IMG/VR virus record: IMGVR_UViG_3300027759_000278
Span: 1 to 32,278 of that record
DNA from: a virus
Reading direction: 5' to 3' (one strand)
DNA: 32,278 bases
Part shown: one piece after another, positions 12,403 to 29,508 of the stretch
How positions within the stretch are numbered: the first letter of the stretch is position 1
How the letters are laid out: every line of letters begins with the position of its first letter
Position numbers and translations under genes: made by a program
Notes under the pieces: model-generated
Told to the model about the DNA's origin: nothing
Databases searched by the model: none
What the model saw: only the letters and a program-made list of their open reading frames with translations

Positions 12403-12419
12403 GTATCCGTGTAGCACCG

Positions 12420-12444
12420 GGGGTGGAAAGGGCTAAAACACCCC
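12420..12444 (+). other. hairpin after the large terminase gene
   Basis: GGGGTG (12420-12425) pairs with CACCCC (12439-12444) across a 13-base loop, 18 bases after the TerL stop. There is no T-run, so it is at best a weak terminator or mRNA end stabiliser. Confidence 0.45.
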
Positions 12445-12468
12445 ATCTCAAAAATATTATAAAACGCA

Positions 12469-12487
12469 CTTCTGTAAGTCGTTGATA
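12469..12487 (-). promoter_or_regulatory. inverted copy of the TATCAACGACTTACA element
   Basis: Read on the minus strand this is TATCAACGACTTACAGAAG, identical in 18 of 19 positions to 5159-5177. It lies about 50 bases upstream of the predicted promoter of the long RNA, in an A/T-rich stretch (12449-12463), a place where an activator or repressor would bind. Confidence 0.45.
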
Positions 12488-12535
12488 GACAACGAAATAA
12501 AGATGCAGATTTTTATATCTTTTCGCAAGCGGTTG

Positions 12536-12544
12536 TGGTATACT
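12536..12544 (+). promoter_or_regulatory. extended -10 promoter of the long RNA
   Basis: TGG followed by TATACT (12539-12544) makes an extended -10 element. No good -35 box is found 16-18 bases upstream, as is common with extended -10 promoters. The first base would be near 12551, at the foot of the first hairpin. Confidence 0.55.
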
Positions 12545-12551
12545 TTGTGAG

Positions 12552-12584
12552 TCAGAGTGAGAGTTAACTCTGATTGTTCTTTGA
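12552..12584 (+). promoter_or_regulatory. boxB-like hairpin followed by boxA-like element
   Basis: TCAGAGT (12552-12558) pairs with ACTCTGA (12567-12573), and TGTTCTTTGA (12575-12584) follows. The order hairpin then boxA is that of bacterial rRNA leaders, where boxA (TGCTCTTTAACA in E. coli) recruits NusB-NusE and prevents Rho termination of an untranslated transcript. Confidence 0.55.
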
Positions 12585-12784
12585 AGTCAGACGCGAAACC
12601 GCTACCTTAAGTCCTCTGCAACAAGCAGGGGCTGTGAACCACACCCGCAAGGGCGTGAGCGAAAAGCCAAAGCGTCCGACGGATAAAGTAAGGAGTGCGG
12701 TAGAACCGCCGGAAACATCGAGGGCCGGGTGACAGCAATGTCATCCACTAACTGAAACAATCCTCGACCGAAAACCAAACCTCC

Positions 12785-12794
12785 TGTTCTTTGT
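12785..12794 (+). promoter_or_regulatory. second boxA-like element
   Basis: TGTTCTTTGT repeats the first nine bases of the leader element at 12575, and AAGTC follows closely in both places (TGTTCTTTGAAGTC and TGTTCTTTGTAAGTC). Confidence 0.4.
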
Positions 12795-13391
12795 AAGTCT
12801 TGGTCATCTGAAAATCAAACTTGGCGAGGGGGAAGATTTAAGCCCCCCAAGGTCGGAGAGGACAAATGATTTCGTCTCAATGCTTCAAGCATCGTAAAGC
12901 GAATAGTAGCATCCCTGCCACCACGCCACTAACTTTAAATACCGGGAGGGGTTGAGAAGCCCCGCAAGCACACGCATAAGCGTCCAGATGCCTACGAGGC
13001 AGAGAGGCGTGGAAGTGCTACCCGGTTCAACTTTTGGGTGGGGTTGGAATAAACCCCTTTATCGCAAAGCCCGCCAAGTGCCTCTTGATGAACGACCCAA
13101 ATCCAATTTATGCGGTGTGCGAGACTGACCTCGCCTGTGAAATCCCCCAGCCGACTATCCATAGAGCGGGGGAGTCTGGTATCCAAACCAGCCACATCGC
13201 TCCACTTTAACGGCCCGGCAAAGTGCCTAATGGTTGCTCTCACCTCGCTCCGGCGAGCAAAGGCAAACAACGAGACATCTCACCCGCGCCGTTCTCTTTA
13301 CGCCCACGCTGATTGGCGTTTGGTTCATTGGTTCCGCTGACCTCCAAAAAAAGTCTTACTGCTCTTGCAAGGGCGTGAGGCGACTGACGGG

Positions 13392-13438
13392 GACTGTATC
13401 TGTAACGGATTTAACTGCGAACCGGAGTTCGGGATACC
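13392..13438 (+). repeat. repeated RNA motif, copy A
   Basis: GACTGTATC, a 5-bp hairpin (ATCTG/CGGAT, loop TAA), TTAACTGCG, a short hairpin and GGGATACC. Copy B lies at 13593-13643 with the same order. Confidence 0.6.
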
Positions 13439-13503
13439 GAATGTTAAATGAACTAAACACAAGCAAACTGTCATCTGAAAGGATGACCTGCGGCACTCTT
13501 TAC

Positions 13504-13680
13504 GACCACGCTACTCAATTGGTTGAGTCGGCTCCCGCTGTATCGTCAAAACAAGCCGTCTTCTGGTTGCAACCGGGGACGGGGAGTTAGATGACTGTAT
13601 CCTGTTAAACGGGATTTAACTGTGGAGTCCTTCAAGGGATACCTTGTCGCAAGTTGCAGGTTCAAGTCCTGCCGTGGCCT
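13504..13680 (+). tRNA. tRNA-like domain 1, oversized (about 177 nt)
   Basis: GACCACG (13504-13510) can pair with CGTGGCC (13673-13679) with one mismatch. A D-arm ACTC-AATTGGTT-GAGT follows (13513-13528), and a T-arm with the invariant loop, GCAGGTTCAAGTCCTGC, closes it (13656-13672). CGGCT/AGCCG (13529-13533 with 13554-13558) sits where the anticodon stem should be but has a 20-base loop. About 95 further bases, including motif copy B, lie before the T-arm. The 3' end is TTCA rather than encoded CCA. It is either an interrupted tRNA gene or a tRNA-like domain of the giant RNA, comparable to the tRNA-like part of tmRNA; I favour the latter. Confidence 0.5.
13593..13643 (+). repeat. repeated RNA motif, copy B
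   Basis: GACTGTATC, hairpin ATCCTG/CGGGAT (loop TTAAA), TTAACTGTG, then a short stem and GGGATACC. Compared with copy A the first stem is one pair longer and the loops differ, but the helix and the flanking single strands are kept, as expected for a conserved RNA fold. Confidence 0.6.
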
Positions 13681-13770
13681 TCATTTTGCTGGTAGAAGAT
13701 GTAGAGGCGCTAAATCCCTCTGGCTTTGTTTTGTAAAGCGTAGAGTCTGACCGCCAGCAATTCACTTTAT

Positions 13771-13900
13771 GGACAAGATACTCAATGGTCGAGTTATCTA
13801 ACCAAGTAACGCTATCGTGGCGCGAACGGAAAGGCAAGAGAAGCACCCACGAAGTGCGACTCCGTGAAAGTTGCGGGTTCAACTCCCGCCTTGTCCACCA
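13771..13900 (+). tRNA. tRNA-like domain 2, oversized, with encoded CCA
   Basis: GGACAAG (13771-13777) pairs perfectly with CTTGTCC (13890-13896), followed by A and CCA (to 13900). The D-arm is ACTC-AATGGTC-GAGT (13780-13794) and the T-arm GCGGGTTCAACTCCCGC (13873-13889). The 78 bases between them are far too many for an anticodon arm and variable loop, and no 5-bp/7-base anticodon arm fits. Instead ACGGA/TCCGT encloses GCAC-CCACGAA-GTGC, whose 7-base loop lacks U33. Position 8 is A instead of the conserved U. The T-arm and end resemble those of tmRNA. It may be an intron-bearing tRNA or a charged-end mimic. Confidence 0.55.
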
Positions 13901-14170
13901 TTTCAGACAGGTAAAAAGACAGCCTACAAGGCAGTCTGTAGCCCGGCTACCAGCCGGACAGGGCTTATCACCCCCTGTGGCCACAAAGCCCGCAGAAAGC
14001 CAAGGAGGCAGTCTGGCGACAGGCGTGGATATGGTTAACAGCCCCACGACTCTTACACGGAGCCTCCAAGCGGAAATCGGAATAAGCCCCGCAGGGAAGC
14101 AAGGAAGTGTGTCGGTCGCCCCTTCAACTTTAGTGCTTGACTATCCGGCCCCCGTGGCCACAGTCGATTA

Positions 14171-14182
14171 TGTTCTTTAACA
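14171..14182 (+). promoter_or_regulatory. third boxA-like element
   Basis: TGTTCTTTAACA is the copy closest to the classical boxA (one change from TGCTCTTTAACA). CTTTAACA is repeated immediately after. It could restart antitermination, or mark the 5' part of a second RNA in the same region. Confidence 0.5.
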
Positions 14183-14939
14183 CTTTAACACCCCCGCAAA
14201 CCACCTGCACAGCCTCGCAAGAGGGGAACGCCTAAAGCGTTCGGCATCTGAAAAGTGCCGTAAGCAGAATGGACAAGCCCTGTCTACACAGGGAGTATTC
14301 TTGCGCCGAAGATTAGCCTGCCTTTTCCGCAGGACGGACGGAATGGGGTGAACGAAATTGCAAGGTCTGGTCGCCAGCAATCATCCCGTGTCCAAAACGG
14401 GGAAAGATGCCAGCGAAGATACTGACCCCAAGACGCTTGTGCAGACAAGGCGGGTGGGACAAATAACCTCCGGGTTCCCACCTGCAAAGGCGCAAGATAT
14501 TTAACTTTCGTGGCGTTGACCACGAGCGACCCGCCGGAATATGGCGGAATTAGTCGTGTGGTTGGTTTCCTCTACTGCCTTGGGCGTTAGAACTCACCGC
14601 AGAAGGGGTTGTAGTCTCATCGTCCGCCGGGTGCTTGGTTAACCACCAAGCCGAGTTGCGGAATAAGCGTGAGGCAAAACCAAATGCGGCTTCCGTGAGG
14701 TGGCCTTTGCAATCGGTGTTGCAGGGAAACCCTGCGACATCGCCAGAGGGGAGCGAGTTCGCTACTCGTTTATGGTTTCTCTCTGGTAAATCTTTGGTTT
14801 GGCTGACGAAAGGAGCAGGGCCGGGAAACCGCCTGCCCATCACCGCGACAAGTCCTACGGGATACGACGCTCTGGGAGATAATGGGGTCGTCCAGCAAAC
14901 CTCCAATTTCGGTTGTAAGTGCATAAGGGTTGTTGGTCT

Positions 14940-14974
14940 GGCTCCACCTCAATTAACCGGGGTGGGGCCTTTTT
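14940..14974 (+). terminator. strong terminator of the long RNA
   Basis: GGCTCCACCTC (14940-14950) pairs along all 11 positions (two as G-T) with GGGGTGGGGCC (14959-14969) around an 8-base loop, followed by TTTTT. It ends the untranslated region 40 bases before the first head gene. Confidence 0.9.
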
Positions 14975-15013
14975 GTTTACAGCCTACAGCGTTGACACCC
15001 GGCAAGACTTGCA

Positions 15014-21349: not shown

Positions 21350-21550
21350 ATGGGATACATTCCAAAGTATGCCACAGTCGTCATTAAAGATGGCGAAGTG
21401 GTAACCATCAAACAATTTGTCGATACTACCGAAGCACGCTTGATTTATCAAGATGCGGTCGATGCCGGGAAGGATGCTTACTATTATTTTGGCCCGATTA
21501 AGCGCAAGGCCACATTCGACAATCCGGCTCCTATTGATGTAACACTCTGA
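21350..21550 (+). CDS. small protein with the shared beta-alpha domain, copy 1
   Basis: 66 residues: YATVVIKDGEVVTIKQFVDT (strand-turn-strand), a helix (EARLIYQDAVDAG), and a third strand YYYFGPIKRK. The same order of strands and helix with similar residues is seen at the N-terminus of the next protein and in the genes at 24583 and 24875. No known family is recognised. The stop and the next ATG share bases (TGATG at about 21548-21552). The ATG is 16 bases after TTGACA and has no Shine-Dalgarno sequence. Confidence 0.75.
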   Translation: MGYIPKYATVVIKDGEVVTIKQFVDTTEARLIYQDAVDAGKDAYYYFGPIKRKATFDNPAPIDVTL

Positions 21551-24537
21551 TGTATCGCCCAAAGCCCCACATTCTGATTTCAATCAACTCCGATGGGAGT
21601 GGGTCAATCAAGCAATACGACTCTTACCAAGACGCAAAGGCCGCTTACAATGCCTTGTCCTCTGGGACTATATCTGCCTTCATCTATGCCAAGCCTAACA
21701 AGAGTCTGGGGTCGGGGGCAATTGGTTCGCCTTTAGCCATCCCGGCCAAGGTTGAGTTTACAAAGGTTCAGAACGCTACTGCCGTTTACAATAGTGGTAA
21801 TCCAAGTTACTCGGCCCCTCACCCTTCAATTGTGCAGTATAACTCGCCGGGCGCACCTATCCAGACTCCGCCCTTGCCCCGTATTGTAGACCCCGGCGTA
21901 TTTGGCGGCTCGGAGGAATACAGGGCTTGGCAAATATTCTGCTCTGCTCACCCGACGCATCCAGAATGCACATTGCCCGGAAATCCTGTTTTTGGAACCC
22001 TGTTGGGAGCGGGTTGTCAAATAAGCCAAGGAAGTTTTAGTGATGAAAACGAGAGGGATTGGTTAAATGTTGCTCCCATAAAGGAAGTTCGTTACGCCGA
22101 TGGGCGCGGAGGTGAGTTCACGGAAAACCCTTACGCAATTAATTCAAAAGAAGGTGGTTGTTTCTGGCCTCAAGGTTACGCCACAGAAGGAATTAACAGT
22201 ATGACTTACTATGACAATATGGTCACAATACCGGAGTGTCTGATAAATGTCGCAATTATGACCTACACTACCGGGGGAGGATGGATGCCCATTCGAGACA
22301 CTTTTCTTGCCGACTGCTGGTCTTATTACGGAGGCCAAGACGGCCAAGGAAACCAGAAAGAGTTGGTTGTTGTCGGCGTTAACAAAATTGGCCTCGGCCC
22401 CCATAAAGGTTTAATTGATTACAATACTCGTTCATACCTGCGCGATGTAAACGGCAATTTACACGATAAGTCTGTCAATGGTTTTGTGGTCACTAATGAG
22501 CCTACAGAGAAGGAGGTTCACACCGGAAGATGGTATGTTGACTTTAACTATTACCTGTCACAACTTCCGGAAAACACGGAGGTTGGTCAAAATATTGGTT
22601 CTTACCCCCGCCGGGTAAGAATTAGATTTAAATACAAGCCGACCACAAACCCCATTAGCCCGTTTGAAACAGTTCCTTCCGCGTCGAAGGCAGGACGCGC
22701 CGTTATCAATTCATTTAGCGGAGAGTTGGACGGAATTGACAGCACAGAGACAATTCAACCTCTGGTTGAATATGAATATGAATACCAAAATGTGTTCATT
22801 AGTGAGGTCGGATATGATGCACCCTGCGCCCAGAAGCAAAAGGCTACAATAACCGATGTCGTTGACGGCCCGTATGTTTCTGGCTGGAGCGATATGGAAT
22901 ACTATGTGGCCGGAACGACGCTTGCGTCTGATAGTGTTAATTACTACAAAGCCGACGGGGTGGGTGGTTATTATGCAGAACCCATCCCCGACCCGCCTCC
23001 CGAATGTCCTTTGGAGGGAACTTATCTTGATTATGGAGACAGACCCATCTATCTCACAGTCGATGCGGACAATTGCCCAAGCGTTGAACTTGGTTCTCAA
23101 CACTTTGACATTTACGCAGACGGGGTTTGCGGAACTTATGAGGAGCCGGGCCAATCAACATACAGCCCAAATGGAACCTACCTTACGCACGGGACTAACT
23201 ACAACTACTTTTCCACGGGAGATGGCGGTTACTATACAGAACCAAGAGTAGTTAACCCGCCTTCCGGGACGGAACTTGGGACATTTACCGACCAGCCCAT
23301 TTACGACTCGGAGTCCGGGTTCCAAGTGGGTTATCAACACTCTCCAGACATTGCCGACGGCAATGGTGGCTCTACGCCGGGCGCGGGGTCGTTCTTCTAT
23401 AGTGGCAACGGGACATTCCTTGGTATCGCCAACGGCCTTGACTACTATTCCAATGGCACGGGTGGCTCTTACTCCCAGCCTCACACCTACGAGCCATACG
23501 GAACATACATTACCTCTGTCTACGAGCCGTATTTCATTAACATTGGGTATGGCGATTGGTTCTCCGGCAATCAATACAACGATGTCTTTGCCGATGGTTC
23601 TGGCGGGTCGTATAGCATCAATGGTTCAAACACAATGGTTCAAACAGGCTGGTTCCCCGAAGGCGCGTTCCTTGGCACAGACTTTCAAGGCGCACCTTTC
23701 TTTGCTAACGGCTCCGGCCTGTGGTATAGCCCGGCTTACCTTTCGATTGGAACAGTCCTTGGATACCCTAACTATGTTGCCGAAAATCACGACGCTGGAT
23801 GTGGTATTATGTGGCTTGGTTACAACCAATACACTCAATACGCTGACGGCAAGGGTGGCTCTTTTGAAACGCTTGTTGACCACTATTGGTCAAATGGCTT
23901 TATCGGACAATGCAACGGATATAACTACTATGCCAATGGCAATGGAGGGTATGGTGCATACCCTGTAGAGGGGACTTATCTTGGCTCCGGAAGCGGAACC
24001 AATACCACAAATGTTGGATGCGGTGATTGGGTGGTTGGTGGCTATTCTTACGACACCTTTGCCGACGGGTCTGGAGGAACATACGATAATGGAACGGGTG
24101 GGGGATACACCTCTTACGGAAGTTATCTGGGTGACTGTAACGGATACCATTACTACACAGATGGCTCCGGTGGCACTTATACTGAACAAATTGATAACGG
24201 CGGCGGCGGAGGTTGCCCTAGTGCTGGCGAATGGGTTGGCCGCGATGGAGATTATGATTACTACACGGACGGAAACTGCGGGTCGTATTCTGTCTACAAC
24301 CCTTCCTGCGCTTCAAGTGGGACATTCCTCGACGGCGGAACCGCTCCTATCAATGTTAATGCCGGATGTGGTGAGATTAGTGTTGGCGAGTATTCTTGGG
24401 CGCAATACGCCAATGGTGAATGCGGTTCTTATATCGACCAAGACTCGCCTTCATACTATTACTCCTACGGACAGCAGATTGGAGAGTGTGAGATGACCGC
24501 GATTTATTTTGACGGGCAGGGTGGCTACTACACTTGA
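21550..24537 (+). CDS. large repeat protein with shared N-terminal domain, likely virion fibre or adhesin
   Basis: 995 residues. Residues 1-50 (HILISINSDGSGSIKQYDSY, then helix and FIYAKPNK) are copy 2 of the small domain. Residues about 50-460 contain single blocks such as YADGRGGEFTENP near 180. From about 465 to the end come some fourteen copies of a unit of roughly 20-50 residues centred on Y-(F/Y)-x-(A/T)-D/N-G-x-G-G-x-Y, often preceded by GT(Y/F)LG. The composition is dominated by Gly, Tyr, Ser, Asn and Asp, with paired Cys in some repeats (CGDW, CGEI). No signal peptide is seen. Tyr/Gly repeat rods of this kind suggest a surface fibre or receptor-binding protein; the placement directly after the capsid gene points to a head fibre. 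Confidence 0.8.
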   Translation: MYRPKPHILISINSDGSGSIKQYDSYQDAKAAYNALSSGTISAFIYAKPNKSLGSGAIGSPLAIPAKVEFTKVQNATAVYNSGNPSYSAPHPSIVQYNSPGAPIQTPPLPRIVDPGVFGGSEEYRAWQIFCSAHPTHPECTLPGNPVFGTLLGAGCQISQGSFSDENERDWLNVAPIKEVRYADGRGGEFTENPYAINSKEGGCFWPQGYATEGINSMTYYDNMVTIPECLINVAIMTYTTGGGWMPIRDTFLADCWSYYGGQDGQGNQKELVVVGVNKIGLGPHKGLIDYNTRSYLRDVNGNLHDKSVNGFVVTNEPTEKEVHTGRWYVDFNYYLSQLPENTEVGQNIGSYPRRVRIRFKYKPTTNPISPFETVPSASKAGRAVINSFSGELDGIDSTETIQPLVEYEYEYQNVFISEVGYDAPCAQKQKATITDVVDGPYVSGWSDMEYYVAGTTLASDSVNYYKADGVGGYYAEPIPDPPPECPLEGTYLDYGDRPIYLTVDADNCPSVELGSQHFDIYADGVCGTYEEPGQSTYSPNGTYLTHGTNYNYFSTGDGGYYTEPRVVNPPSGTELGTFTDQPIYDSESGFQVGYQHSPDIADGNGGSTPGAGSFFYSGNGTFLGIANGLDYYSNGTGGSYSQPHTYEPYGTYITSVYEPYFINIGYGDWFSGNQYNDVFADGSGGSYSINGSNTMVQTGWFPEGAFLGTDFQGAPFFANGSGLWYSPAYLSIGTVLGYPNYVAENHDAGCGIMWLGYNQYTQYADGKGGSFETLVDHYWSNGFIGQCNGYNYYANGNGGYGAYPVEGTYLGSGSGTNTTNVGCGDWVVGGYSYDTFADGSGGTYDNGTGGGYTSYGSYLGDCNGYHYYTDGSGGTYTEQIDNGGGGGCPSAGEWVGRDGDYDYYTDGNCGSYSVYNPSCASSGTFLDGGTAPINVNAGCGEISVGEYSWAQYANGECGSYIDQDSPSYYYSYGQQIGECEMTAIYFDGQGGYYT

Positions 24538-28401: not shown

Positions 28402-28731
28402 TTAACGGATACGAATGGCGTAGCGGGCGTAGTTGTATCCTTCCGTGTTGATATAGAACTCGTCCTTGGCGACAGAGTCCTCGGAGTTAGCAAACTGAAG
28501 GATGAACCGATTGCCCGGCAGGGCGAAATCAAAATCTCGCAGAGGGCTGGAGTCCTTGACGCTACCAATGACCCGGACGATGGGCAGATGAGCAAACACC
28601 TCGCGCTCCATCTTCTTGGAAGACTTCATCCGGCGGATGCAATCCCACGAGTCCGGCTTACGCTCGCAATTGTGGTCAAGGACGGCACAGAGAACTCGTA
28701 GGTCTTTGGGCTGGCGTGGAGTGGTAGACAT
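28402..28731 (-). CDS. hypothetical protein, 109 aa
   Basis: 109 residues from ATG 28731 (MSTTPRQPKDLRVLCAVLDH); an ATG at 28743 would add four residues and overlap the upstream stop by eight bases. Contains CERKPDSWDCIRRMK, then a beta-rich end (VRVIGSVKDS, NRFILQFANS, YARYAIRIR). The two Cys are not in a zinc-knuckle spacing. No family recognised. Confidence 0.65.
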   Translation of the reverse strand: MSTTPRQPKDLRVLCAVLDHNCERKPDSWDCIRRMKSSKKMEREVFAHLPIVRVIGSVKDSSPLRDFDFALPGNRFILQFANSEDSVAKDEFYINTEGYNYARYAIRIR

Positions 28732-28735
28732 TGGA

Positions 28736-28978
28736 TTAGACATTGTGGGGGAAAATGCGGTTAGCAGACTCGCCCTGCGAGGCGAGCAGTTCGGACTTGA
28801 GGCGACGCTGTGCCAAGAGGCACTCGATAGCGTTGACGGCATCGAGGACTTCATTCTGAAAGGCGACCGGAGTCTCCTTGCTGACGGCATCGTAGTCGGC
28901 CTTGGCCTTGAGCATCGCGTTGCGAGCGTCGAGGAAGCGGATGGCTTCCGGGGTGGTGAGGATGGTCGTGTTGGACAT
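28736..28978 (-). CDS. hypothetical helical protein, 80 aa
   Basis: 80 residues, nearly all helix: EAIRFLDARNAMLKAKADYD, then VLDAVNAIECLLAQRRLKSE. Leader cacacgcat-ATG. Its length and heptad-like pattern suggest a helical hairpin or small coiled coil. No family recognised. Confidence 0.65.
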   Translation of the reverse strand: MSNTTILTTPEAIRFLDARNAMLKAKADYDAVSKETPVAFQNEVLDAVNAIECLLAQRRLKSELLASQGESANRIFPHNV

Positions 28979-29002: not shown

Positions 29003-29200
29003 TTAGCGGTTGCCGAAGATGTAGGCCGCGAGCGAAGCGTCGAGGGTCTTCTTACCGCCGTTGTGTTCAGCGATAGCCACGAGGAGTTTCTTTTCGAGGT
29101 AGCGGTCAAGGGCTTCCAAGAACTCCTTGGAGGTGCGCTTGCCGTGGCTCTTGATGAACTTCCGGATGGAAGCGGGCTTGATGTAGTTGGGCTTGCTCAT
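29003..29200 (-). CDS. single histone-fold protein (putative)
   Basis: 65 residues that fit a histone fold: helix 1 IKPASIRKFIKSHG (7-20), loop with KRTS (21-24), long helix 2 KEFLEALDRYLEKKLLVAIA (25-44), then the GGKKTL loop (48-53) that corresponds to the 'RKT' L2 loop, and helix 3 (54-62). The pattern 'S...f.eAL...l...l..Ai.......kkTl' is that of archaeal and bacterial histones (including DUF1931-like proteins). Rich in Lys, so DNA binding is plausible. Bacterial histones are sparse and phage ones more so. The call is by pattern only; a different three-helix DNA binder is possible. Confidence 0.55.
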   Translation of the reverse strand: MSKPNYIKPASIRKFIKSHGKRTSKEFLEALDRYLEKKLLVAIAEHNGGKKTLDASLAAYIFGNR

Positions 29201-29235: not shown

Positions 29236-29508
29236 TTAGAGGATGCCTCCGTTGATACGGAGTTTGGAAAGGTTGCGGGTCATACGCTCAACCTCACGGG
29301 AGTTGTTGGGGCGGACGCACTTCACGCCCGTGTCCGTGGAGAGGTGCTGGATGGCATCCGCGAGGATGGCTCCGTGTCCCTGCTTGATGAGGATGCTCAC
29401 AAGACGCATCACAGTTTCCGGGAGGTGCTTCTTGGCGTTCTTACAGGCGACCTTGAAGTCTGCGGTGCTGGTGATGGGCTGGCGTTCGTTTTGGTTGGTG
29501 GGTTCCAT
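29236..29508 (-). CDS. hypothetical protein, 90 aa
   Basis: 90 residues from ATG 29508 (MEPTNQNERQPITSTADFKV). The core is helical (AKKHLPETVMRLVSILIKQG, ADAIQHLSTDTGV) with a basic C-terminus (SREVERMTRNLSKLRINGG). Leader cgacatctct-ATG with a TTGACA box upstream. No family recognised. Confidence 0.65.
   Translation of the reverse strand: MEPTNQNERQPITSTADFKVACKNAKKHLPETVMRLVSILIKQGHGAILADAIQHLSTDTGVKCVRPNNSREVERMTRNLSKLRINGGIL

Follow-up and report, generated by a model that had tools for sequence, protein, structure and literature searches.

A minimal, stand-alone histone-fold protein encoded by phages

The question raised by one very short gene in a virus fragment record of 32,278 bases, the whole of which is referred to here as the window, is whether its product is a histone and, if so, on which DNA such a protein would act. 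The first-pass annotation had placed an open reading frame of 65 residues at 29003-29200 without naming a strand; the frame is present at those coordinates on the minus strand, where the ATG at 29200 is the earliest start possible in frame after the upstream stop. The record has one copy of it. The product reads MSKPNYIKPASIRKFIKSHGKRTSKEFLEALDRYLEKKLLVAIAEHNGGKKTLDASLAAYIFGNR, and the gene and its predicted elements are as follows.

29003..29200, minus strand: phage histone gene encoding 65 aa, a stand-alone protein with one histone fold
29147..29176, minus strand: helix alpha-1, residues 9-18 (AlphaFold2)
29129..29140, minus strand: loop 1 motif KRTS, residues 21-24; K21 and R22 unchanged across 29 sequences
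29066..29128, minus strand: helix alpha-2, residues 25-45 (AlphaFold2)
29045..29065, minus strand: loop 2 motif HNGGKKT, residues 46-52
29015..29038, minus strand: helix alpha-3, residues 55-62 (AlphaFold2); longer than in alpha-3 histones

The product is a real protein rather than a chance open reading frame, because relatives are found in other viral contigs and the gene is under purifying selection. Scanning with the protein and then with family alignments recovered relatives with 42-87% identity in 42 other IMG/VR contigs. Codon comparison of the window with contig L010 gave a dN of 0.089 and a dS of 0.77, and across the family the mean over all pairs was 0.30 for pN versus 0.74 for pS. 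Each of the 43 virus records carries one copy. The members with a settled start, which the divergent member L047 does not have, are stand-alone proteins of 61-71 aa, and all members are basic, with a pI of 9.6-10.3 and a net charge of +6 to +9. Two proteins of uncultured Caudovirales phages in BFVD, A0A6J5QYV5 and A0A6J5MS37, are 58-61% identical to the window protein and have the same predicted fold (TM 0.86-0.89); they are members of the same family. Among about 85,000 species genomes of bacteria and archaea, one match came up, L044, in a Candidatus Aquidulcis MAG. We rejected it as a bacterial host copy: the 32-kb contig is phage DNA, because most of its genes are common to the phage contig L025 and because it shares primase and terminase with the window (in its right part, the window's primase is matched at 74% and its terminase small subunit at 74%). 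The histone family was not found in 300 other genomes of the Candidatus Aquidulcis phylum.

The first-pass annotation had read a helix-loop-long helix-loop-helix spacing from the sequence, placing KRTS in the first loop and GGKKTL in the second, and structure prediction bears this out. An AlphaFold2 model of the window protein built with 29 sequences (pLDDT 87.8) is a three-helix histone fold in which KRTS (residues 21-24) lies between helices 9-18 and 25-45, and GGKKTL (residues 48-53) between helices 25-45 and 55-62. The search of a predicted structure against histone folds that the annotation had proposed was carried out with Foldseek, and alpha-3-type histones (HLp, HBb and HTkC) fill the first six places against the PDB, with a probability of 0.91-0.98, a TM of about 0.7 and an rmsd of 1.4-1.6 A; the matches below them are mostly eukaryotic histone folds. 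The E-values are weak (0.3-0.9, with about 54 residues aligned) because the chain is very short, and the ranking is unanimous. The divergent relative L049, which is 42% identical, is predicted to have the same fold with helix 3 at residues 54-60, and the ten best Foldseek matches of its model are histone folds only, HLp among them at a probability of 1.00.

Profile comparison, the other check that had been suggested, agrees with the structural one. Aligned by hhalign with HBb, HTkC and HLp, whose sequences were taken from the PDB alignments, the family profile scored 35.3 with a probability of 92.5; the best of 200 column-permuted decoys reached 23.4 and the reversed profile 7.1. The corresponding E-value, which is for one comparison, was 4.8e-7 versus 2.4e-4 for the best decoy. 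In hmmsearch with the family profiles, the PDB entries of HBb, HTkC and HLp were matched at E-values of 0.0015-0.15, and the commonest weak match is the NCBIfam archaeal histone. No Pfam histone model matched, and a single-sequence search found no histone. The protein thus combines what defines the histone fold superfamily, a helix-loop-long helix-loop-helix arrangement in about 65 aa and matches to solved histones, and the structure and profile comparisons support the annotated single histone fold close to archaeal and bacterial histones.

Several other matches were discarded. Those to Pfam HTH_16, HI0933 and PHROG 36445 were far below cut-off. Matches to TAL effectors in PDB sequence searches are an artefact of the GGK..L motif, in which a few bits per repeat are summed over many repeats. 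Matches to the Vibrio phages VBP47, VBP32 and PJN101, where residues 1-33 fall inside a RuvC-like resolvase, were judged to be due to chance. The H1-like proteins of Moraphage belong to PF07432 and are of an unrelated kind (PMC12619734).

The annotation was right that histones in phages are little described, though not absolutely, since one paper defines phage histones as a category within the alpha-3 histones (Schwab et al. 2024, PMC11390915). The proteins of that category have an N-terminal histone fold and a C-terminal helical domain predicted to tetramerise, lack the RxTxxxxD motif and were proposed to bridge DNA (PMC11390915). Our family resembles them in its histone fold, its occurrence in tailed phages, its viral metagenome source, the missing RxTxxxxD, a conserved basic residue in helix 1 and a lysine in loop 2. 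Unlike them, it has no C-terminal tetramerisation domain and ends 10-19 residues past the loop-2 threonine. It keeps the alpha-3 trait of a helix 2 that is 4-5 residues shorter than in nucleosomal histones: the loop-1 T/V and the loop-2 T are 29 residues apart in the family, 30 in HBb and 34 in HMfB. In contrast to alpha-3 histones, whose helix 3 has 3-4 residues, helix 3 of the family has 8 in the AlphaFold2 monomer, where confidence is lower.

The family also resembles HBb (Bd0055) of Bdellovibrio bacteriovorus (PDB 8FVX, 9EZZ, 9F0E), which is likewise a stand-alone single histone fold of equal length with a short helix 2, KT in loop 2, TS in loop 1 and a basic helix 1, and which superimposes with an rmsd of 1.4-1.5 A. 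The family differs from HBb in having no RD clamp (K50 and V/L/I57 stand in place of R and D), no equivalent of R57, a longer helix 3 and an invariant HNGG before KKT, and it was found in this analysis in phages only. Of the RKTxxxD motif of bacterial dimer histones, KT is kept whereas R and D are not, and the sequence match to HBb is weak. The face-to-face histones HTkC (PDB 9F2C) and HLp (PDB 9QT0) have the same fold and a similar size, and together with HBb they are the best Foldseek and hmmsearch matches of the family. However, the family does not have the HLp tetramer residues R49, N53 and R55 as a complete set, and it also lacks the RD clamp; when the face-to-face tetramer residues were compared in the 29-sequence alignment, N47 was invariant without the arginine pair. 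By its defining features the family therefore cannot be filed under the phage histones of Schwab et al. or the bacterial dimers, and probably not under the face-to-face histones; by analogy it likeliest works in the manner of the bacterial dimer HBb. Some members may already be in the histone list of Schwab et al.; going by the category descriptions, the family is a minimal phage histone variant that is new compared with the two-domain proteins published so far. In the openly licensed literature, core-type histones of phages were not found described elsewhere, and two papers on viral histones make no mention of phages. Two further viral proteins in BFVD, A0A516LIY4 (139 aa, probability 0.99) and A0A516M1G1 (99 aa, probability 0.94), gave histone-fold matches to the model in the range of 22-25% identity and may be published two-domain phage histones.

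The pattern of conservation bears on what such a protein would touch. HBb contacts DNA through K12 and K16 in helix 1, T23 and S24 in loop 1, K52 and T53 in loop 2, and R57 (PMC11317129). In the alignment of 29 sequences, R/K13 (29/29) aligns with K12 of HBb, K17 (23/29) with K16, T/V23 (24/29) and S24 (23/29) with T23 and S24, and K51 (27/29) and T52 (29/29) with the DNA-binding K52 and T53; R57 of HBb is not conserved. Conservation within the family is strongest in the two loops, both of which coincide with the DNA-contact loops of HBb and HLp. Loop 1 follows the pattern GKR[TV]S, K21 and R22 being invariant, and loop 2 the pattern HNGGKxT, with H46, N47, G48, G49, K50 and T52 invariant. The H46-N47-G48-G49 stretch has no equivalent in HBb or HLp. 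All 29 sequences lack the RD clamp (RxTxxxxD), having K50-x-T52 followed by V/L/I at position 57. D54, present in 28 of the 29 and placed directly before helix 3 in the AlphaFold2 model, may cap that helix.

Judged by its PHROGs (terminase small and large subunits, portal, head maturation protease and major head protein), the window contig is from a tailed phage, and the contigs of the relatives carry terminases of two families. In the window the histone gene lies among small minus-strand genes with no assigned function and does not adjoin replication genes. Its neighbours are:

29236..29508, minus strand: small gene upstream of the histone, 90 aa, no assigned function
28736..28978, minus strand: small gene downstream of the histone, 80 aa, no assigned function
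28402..28731, minus strand: neighbouring gene, 109 aa, with a homologue of about 40% identity in phage contig G001:C68

In G001:C68, the homologue of the last of these follows about 400 bp downstream from the histone gene. A large group of sister phages has another arrangement, in which the histone gene stands upstream of genes for endonuclease VII and exonuclease VIII in a recombination and replication block that also holds an O-like replication initiation protein, a DnaC-like helicase loader and an Erf annealing protein. A terminator-like hairpin, GGGGGAAGTTACTAACCCC, is found 60-150 bases before the histone start codon in 17 of 18 sister-phage loci, usually followed by a T run, and about half of the loci have more copies upstream between other genes. 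Directly before the histone ATG, most of these loci have a leader of the TTTCTGTTCTTTCACATCC type without a Shine-Dalgarno sequence. This arrangement is consistent with a separate transcription unit for the gene, which is probably expressed early.

A conserved leader type without a Shine-Dalgarno sequence, TTTCTGTTCTTTCACATCCCGCAT, occurs 20-30 bases before the histone ATG in L013, L024, L026, L027, L029, L031, L032, L034-L037 and L040-L043. Where present, its exact core is found almost only before the histone gene, and a phage-wide promoter was rejected as an explanation of the shared leader motif, which does not recur genome-wide. For the window genes starting at 29200 and 28978 on the minus strand, and in many relatives, CA-rich leaders such as CACACCAACACGACAGACCT replace the Shine-Dalgarno sequence and may indicate that the host starts translation by a non-SD route.

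Our preferred reading, to which we give a probability of about 0.68, is that of a minimal phage histone that would act as a homodimer, bend DNA without sequence specificity and work on phage DNA early. A DNA-bending dimer is the likeliest form because the HBb contact positions are conserved, the loops are the most conserved stretches and the members are basic. The computations establish the fold, the family, the conservation, the purifying selection and, for one phage group, that the gene precedes those for recombination and replication; dimerisation, DNA binding, bending and timing are our inference. By analogy with HBb of Bdellovibrio, two single histone folds would most likely form a homodimer, which would bind the DNA backbone and bend the DNA as HBb does. 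Its DNA-contact ridge would be made of the GKR[TV]S and HNGGKKT loops of opposite subunits together with basic residues of helix 1. The DNA on which such a dimer acts would probably be that of the phage, at an early stage of infection while it replicates and recombines, as with phage-encoded proteins of the HU type. No HU or IHF gene was found in the 43 virus records, while 9 of 14 control genomes have them. Many ordinary phages lack HU, so this absence agrees weakly with the histone being a substitute.

A bolder form of this reading, which we regard as doubtful, is that the family is a separate minimal phage histone lineage in which the invariant HNGGKxT loop replaces the RD clamp, giving a DNA-binding mode unseen in other histones and a chromatin protein in replication and recombination. 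The same protein could instead be aimed at the host nucleoid, silencing or reorganising host DNA early rather than managing phage DNA. The small basic histone fold and, in one phage group, a start region of its own right after a terminator-like hairpin would suit such a role, and expressed HLp reorganises the nucleoid in E. coli (PMC12701072). We consider a host target unlikely, however, as in a large group of loci the gene precedes those for recombination and replication, which suggests a role on phage DNA.

Less probable again is that the fold works through protein contacts, as a regulator or an anti-defence factor, and does not bind DNA in earnest. Many histone-fold proteins do not package DNA, and both the loss of the RD clamp with the unconserved R57 position and the invariant H46-N47-G48-G49 without a counterpart in HBb or HLp could be read in this way; yet the net positive charge of every member, and conservation that peaks precisely in the pair of loops through which HBb and HLp touch DNA, speak against it. 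Least probable of all is that the protein is no histone at all and instead some other small three-helix protein, for example a helix-turn-helix DNA binder. The HTH_16 match that would favour this has an E-value of 0.084 and 13.4 bits, far under the cut-off of 22, whereas histones come first in Foldseek for both AlphaFold2 models of divergent members, the profile-profile score is well above the decoys, and the NCBIfam archaeal histone is the commonest weak match.

The family represents the simplest possible form of a histone, with one fold, 61-71 residues and one gene, and the tailed phages that encode it have terminases of at least two families. Since such a gene is present in at least 40 related virus contigs, these viruses may shape their own or their host's DNA with histones. 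A 65-aa histone is easy to purify and could show whether phages put true histones on their own DNA, and the family could show whether alpha-3 histones are exchanged between phages and cells.

The window has other features of interest. A 2.6-kb gap between terminase and portal (12403-15013) contains no plausible protein gene and looks like an array of structured RNAs. Two other histone phages, L096 and L095, share blocks of it at the corresponding place (95% over 142 bases and 91% over 103 bases), and these blocks are better conserved than the terminase protein encoded next to the gap (75% and 70%, respectively). On the plus strand, 13771-13900 (130 nt) and 13504-13683 (180 nt) each hold a tRNA-like RNA. 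The former combines an acceptor stem GGACAAG/CTTGTCC ending in ACCA with a D-arm and a T-arm, but it has about 55 surplus bases and lacks a clear anticodon arm. For these RNAs of the gap, ARAGORN found no tRNA and Rfam gave only a weak match to the 3' half of tmRNA; they may represent tRNAs into which short stretches are inserted, or else a new RNA. Finally, a 995-aa protein with no PHROG match, encoded on the plus strand at 21550-24537, is rich in repeats of the YADGxGGxY type and is possibly a tail or surface adhesin.
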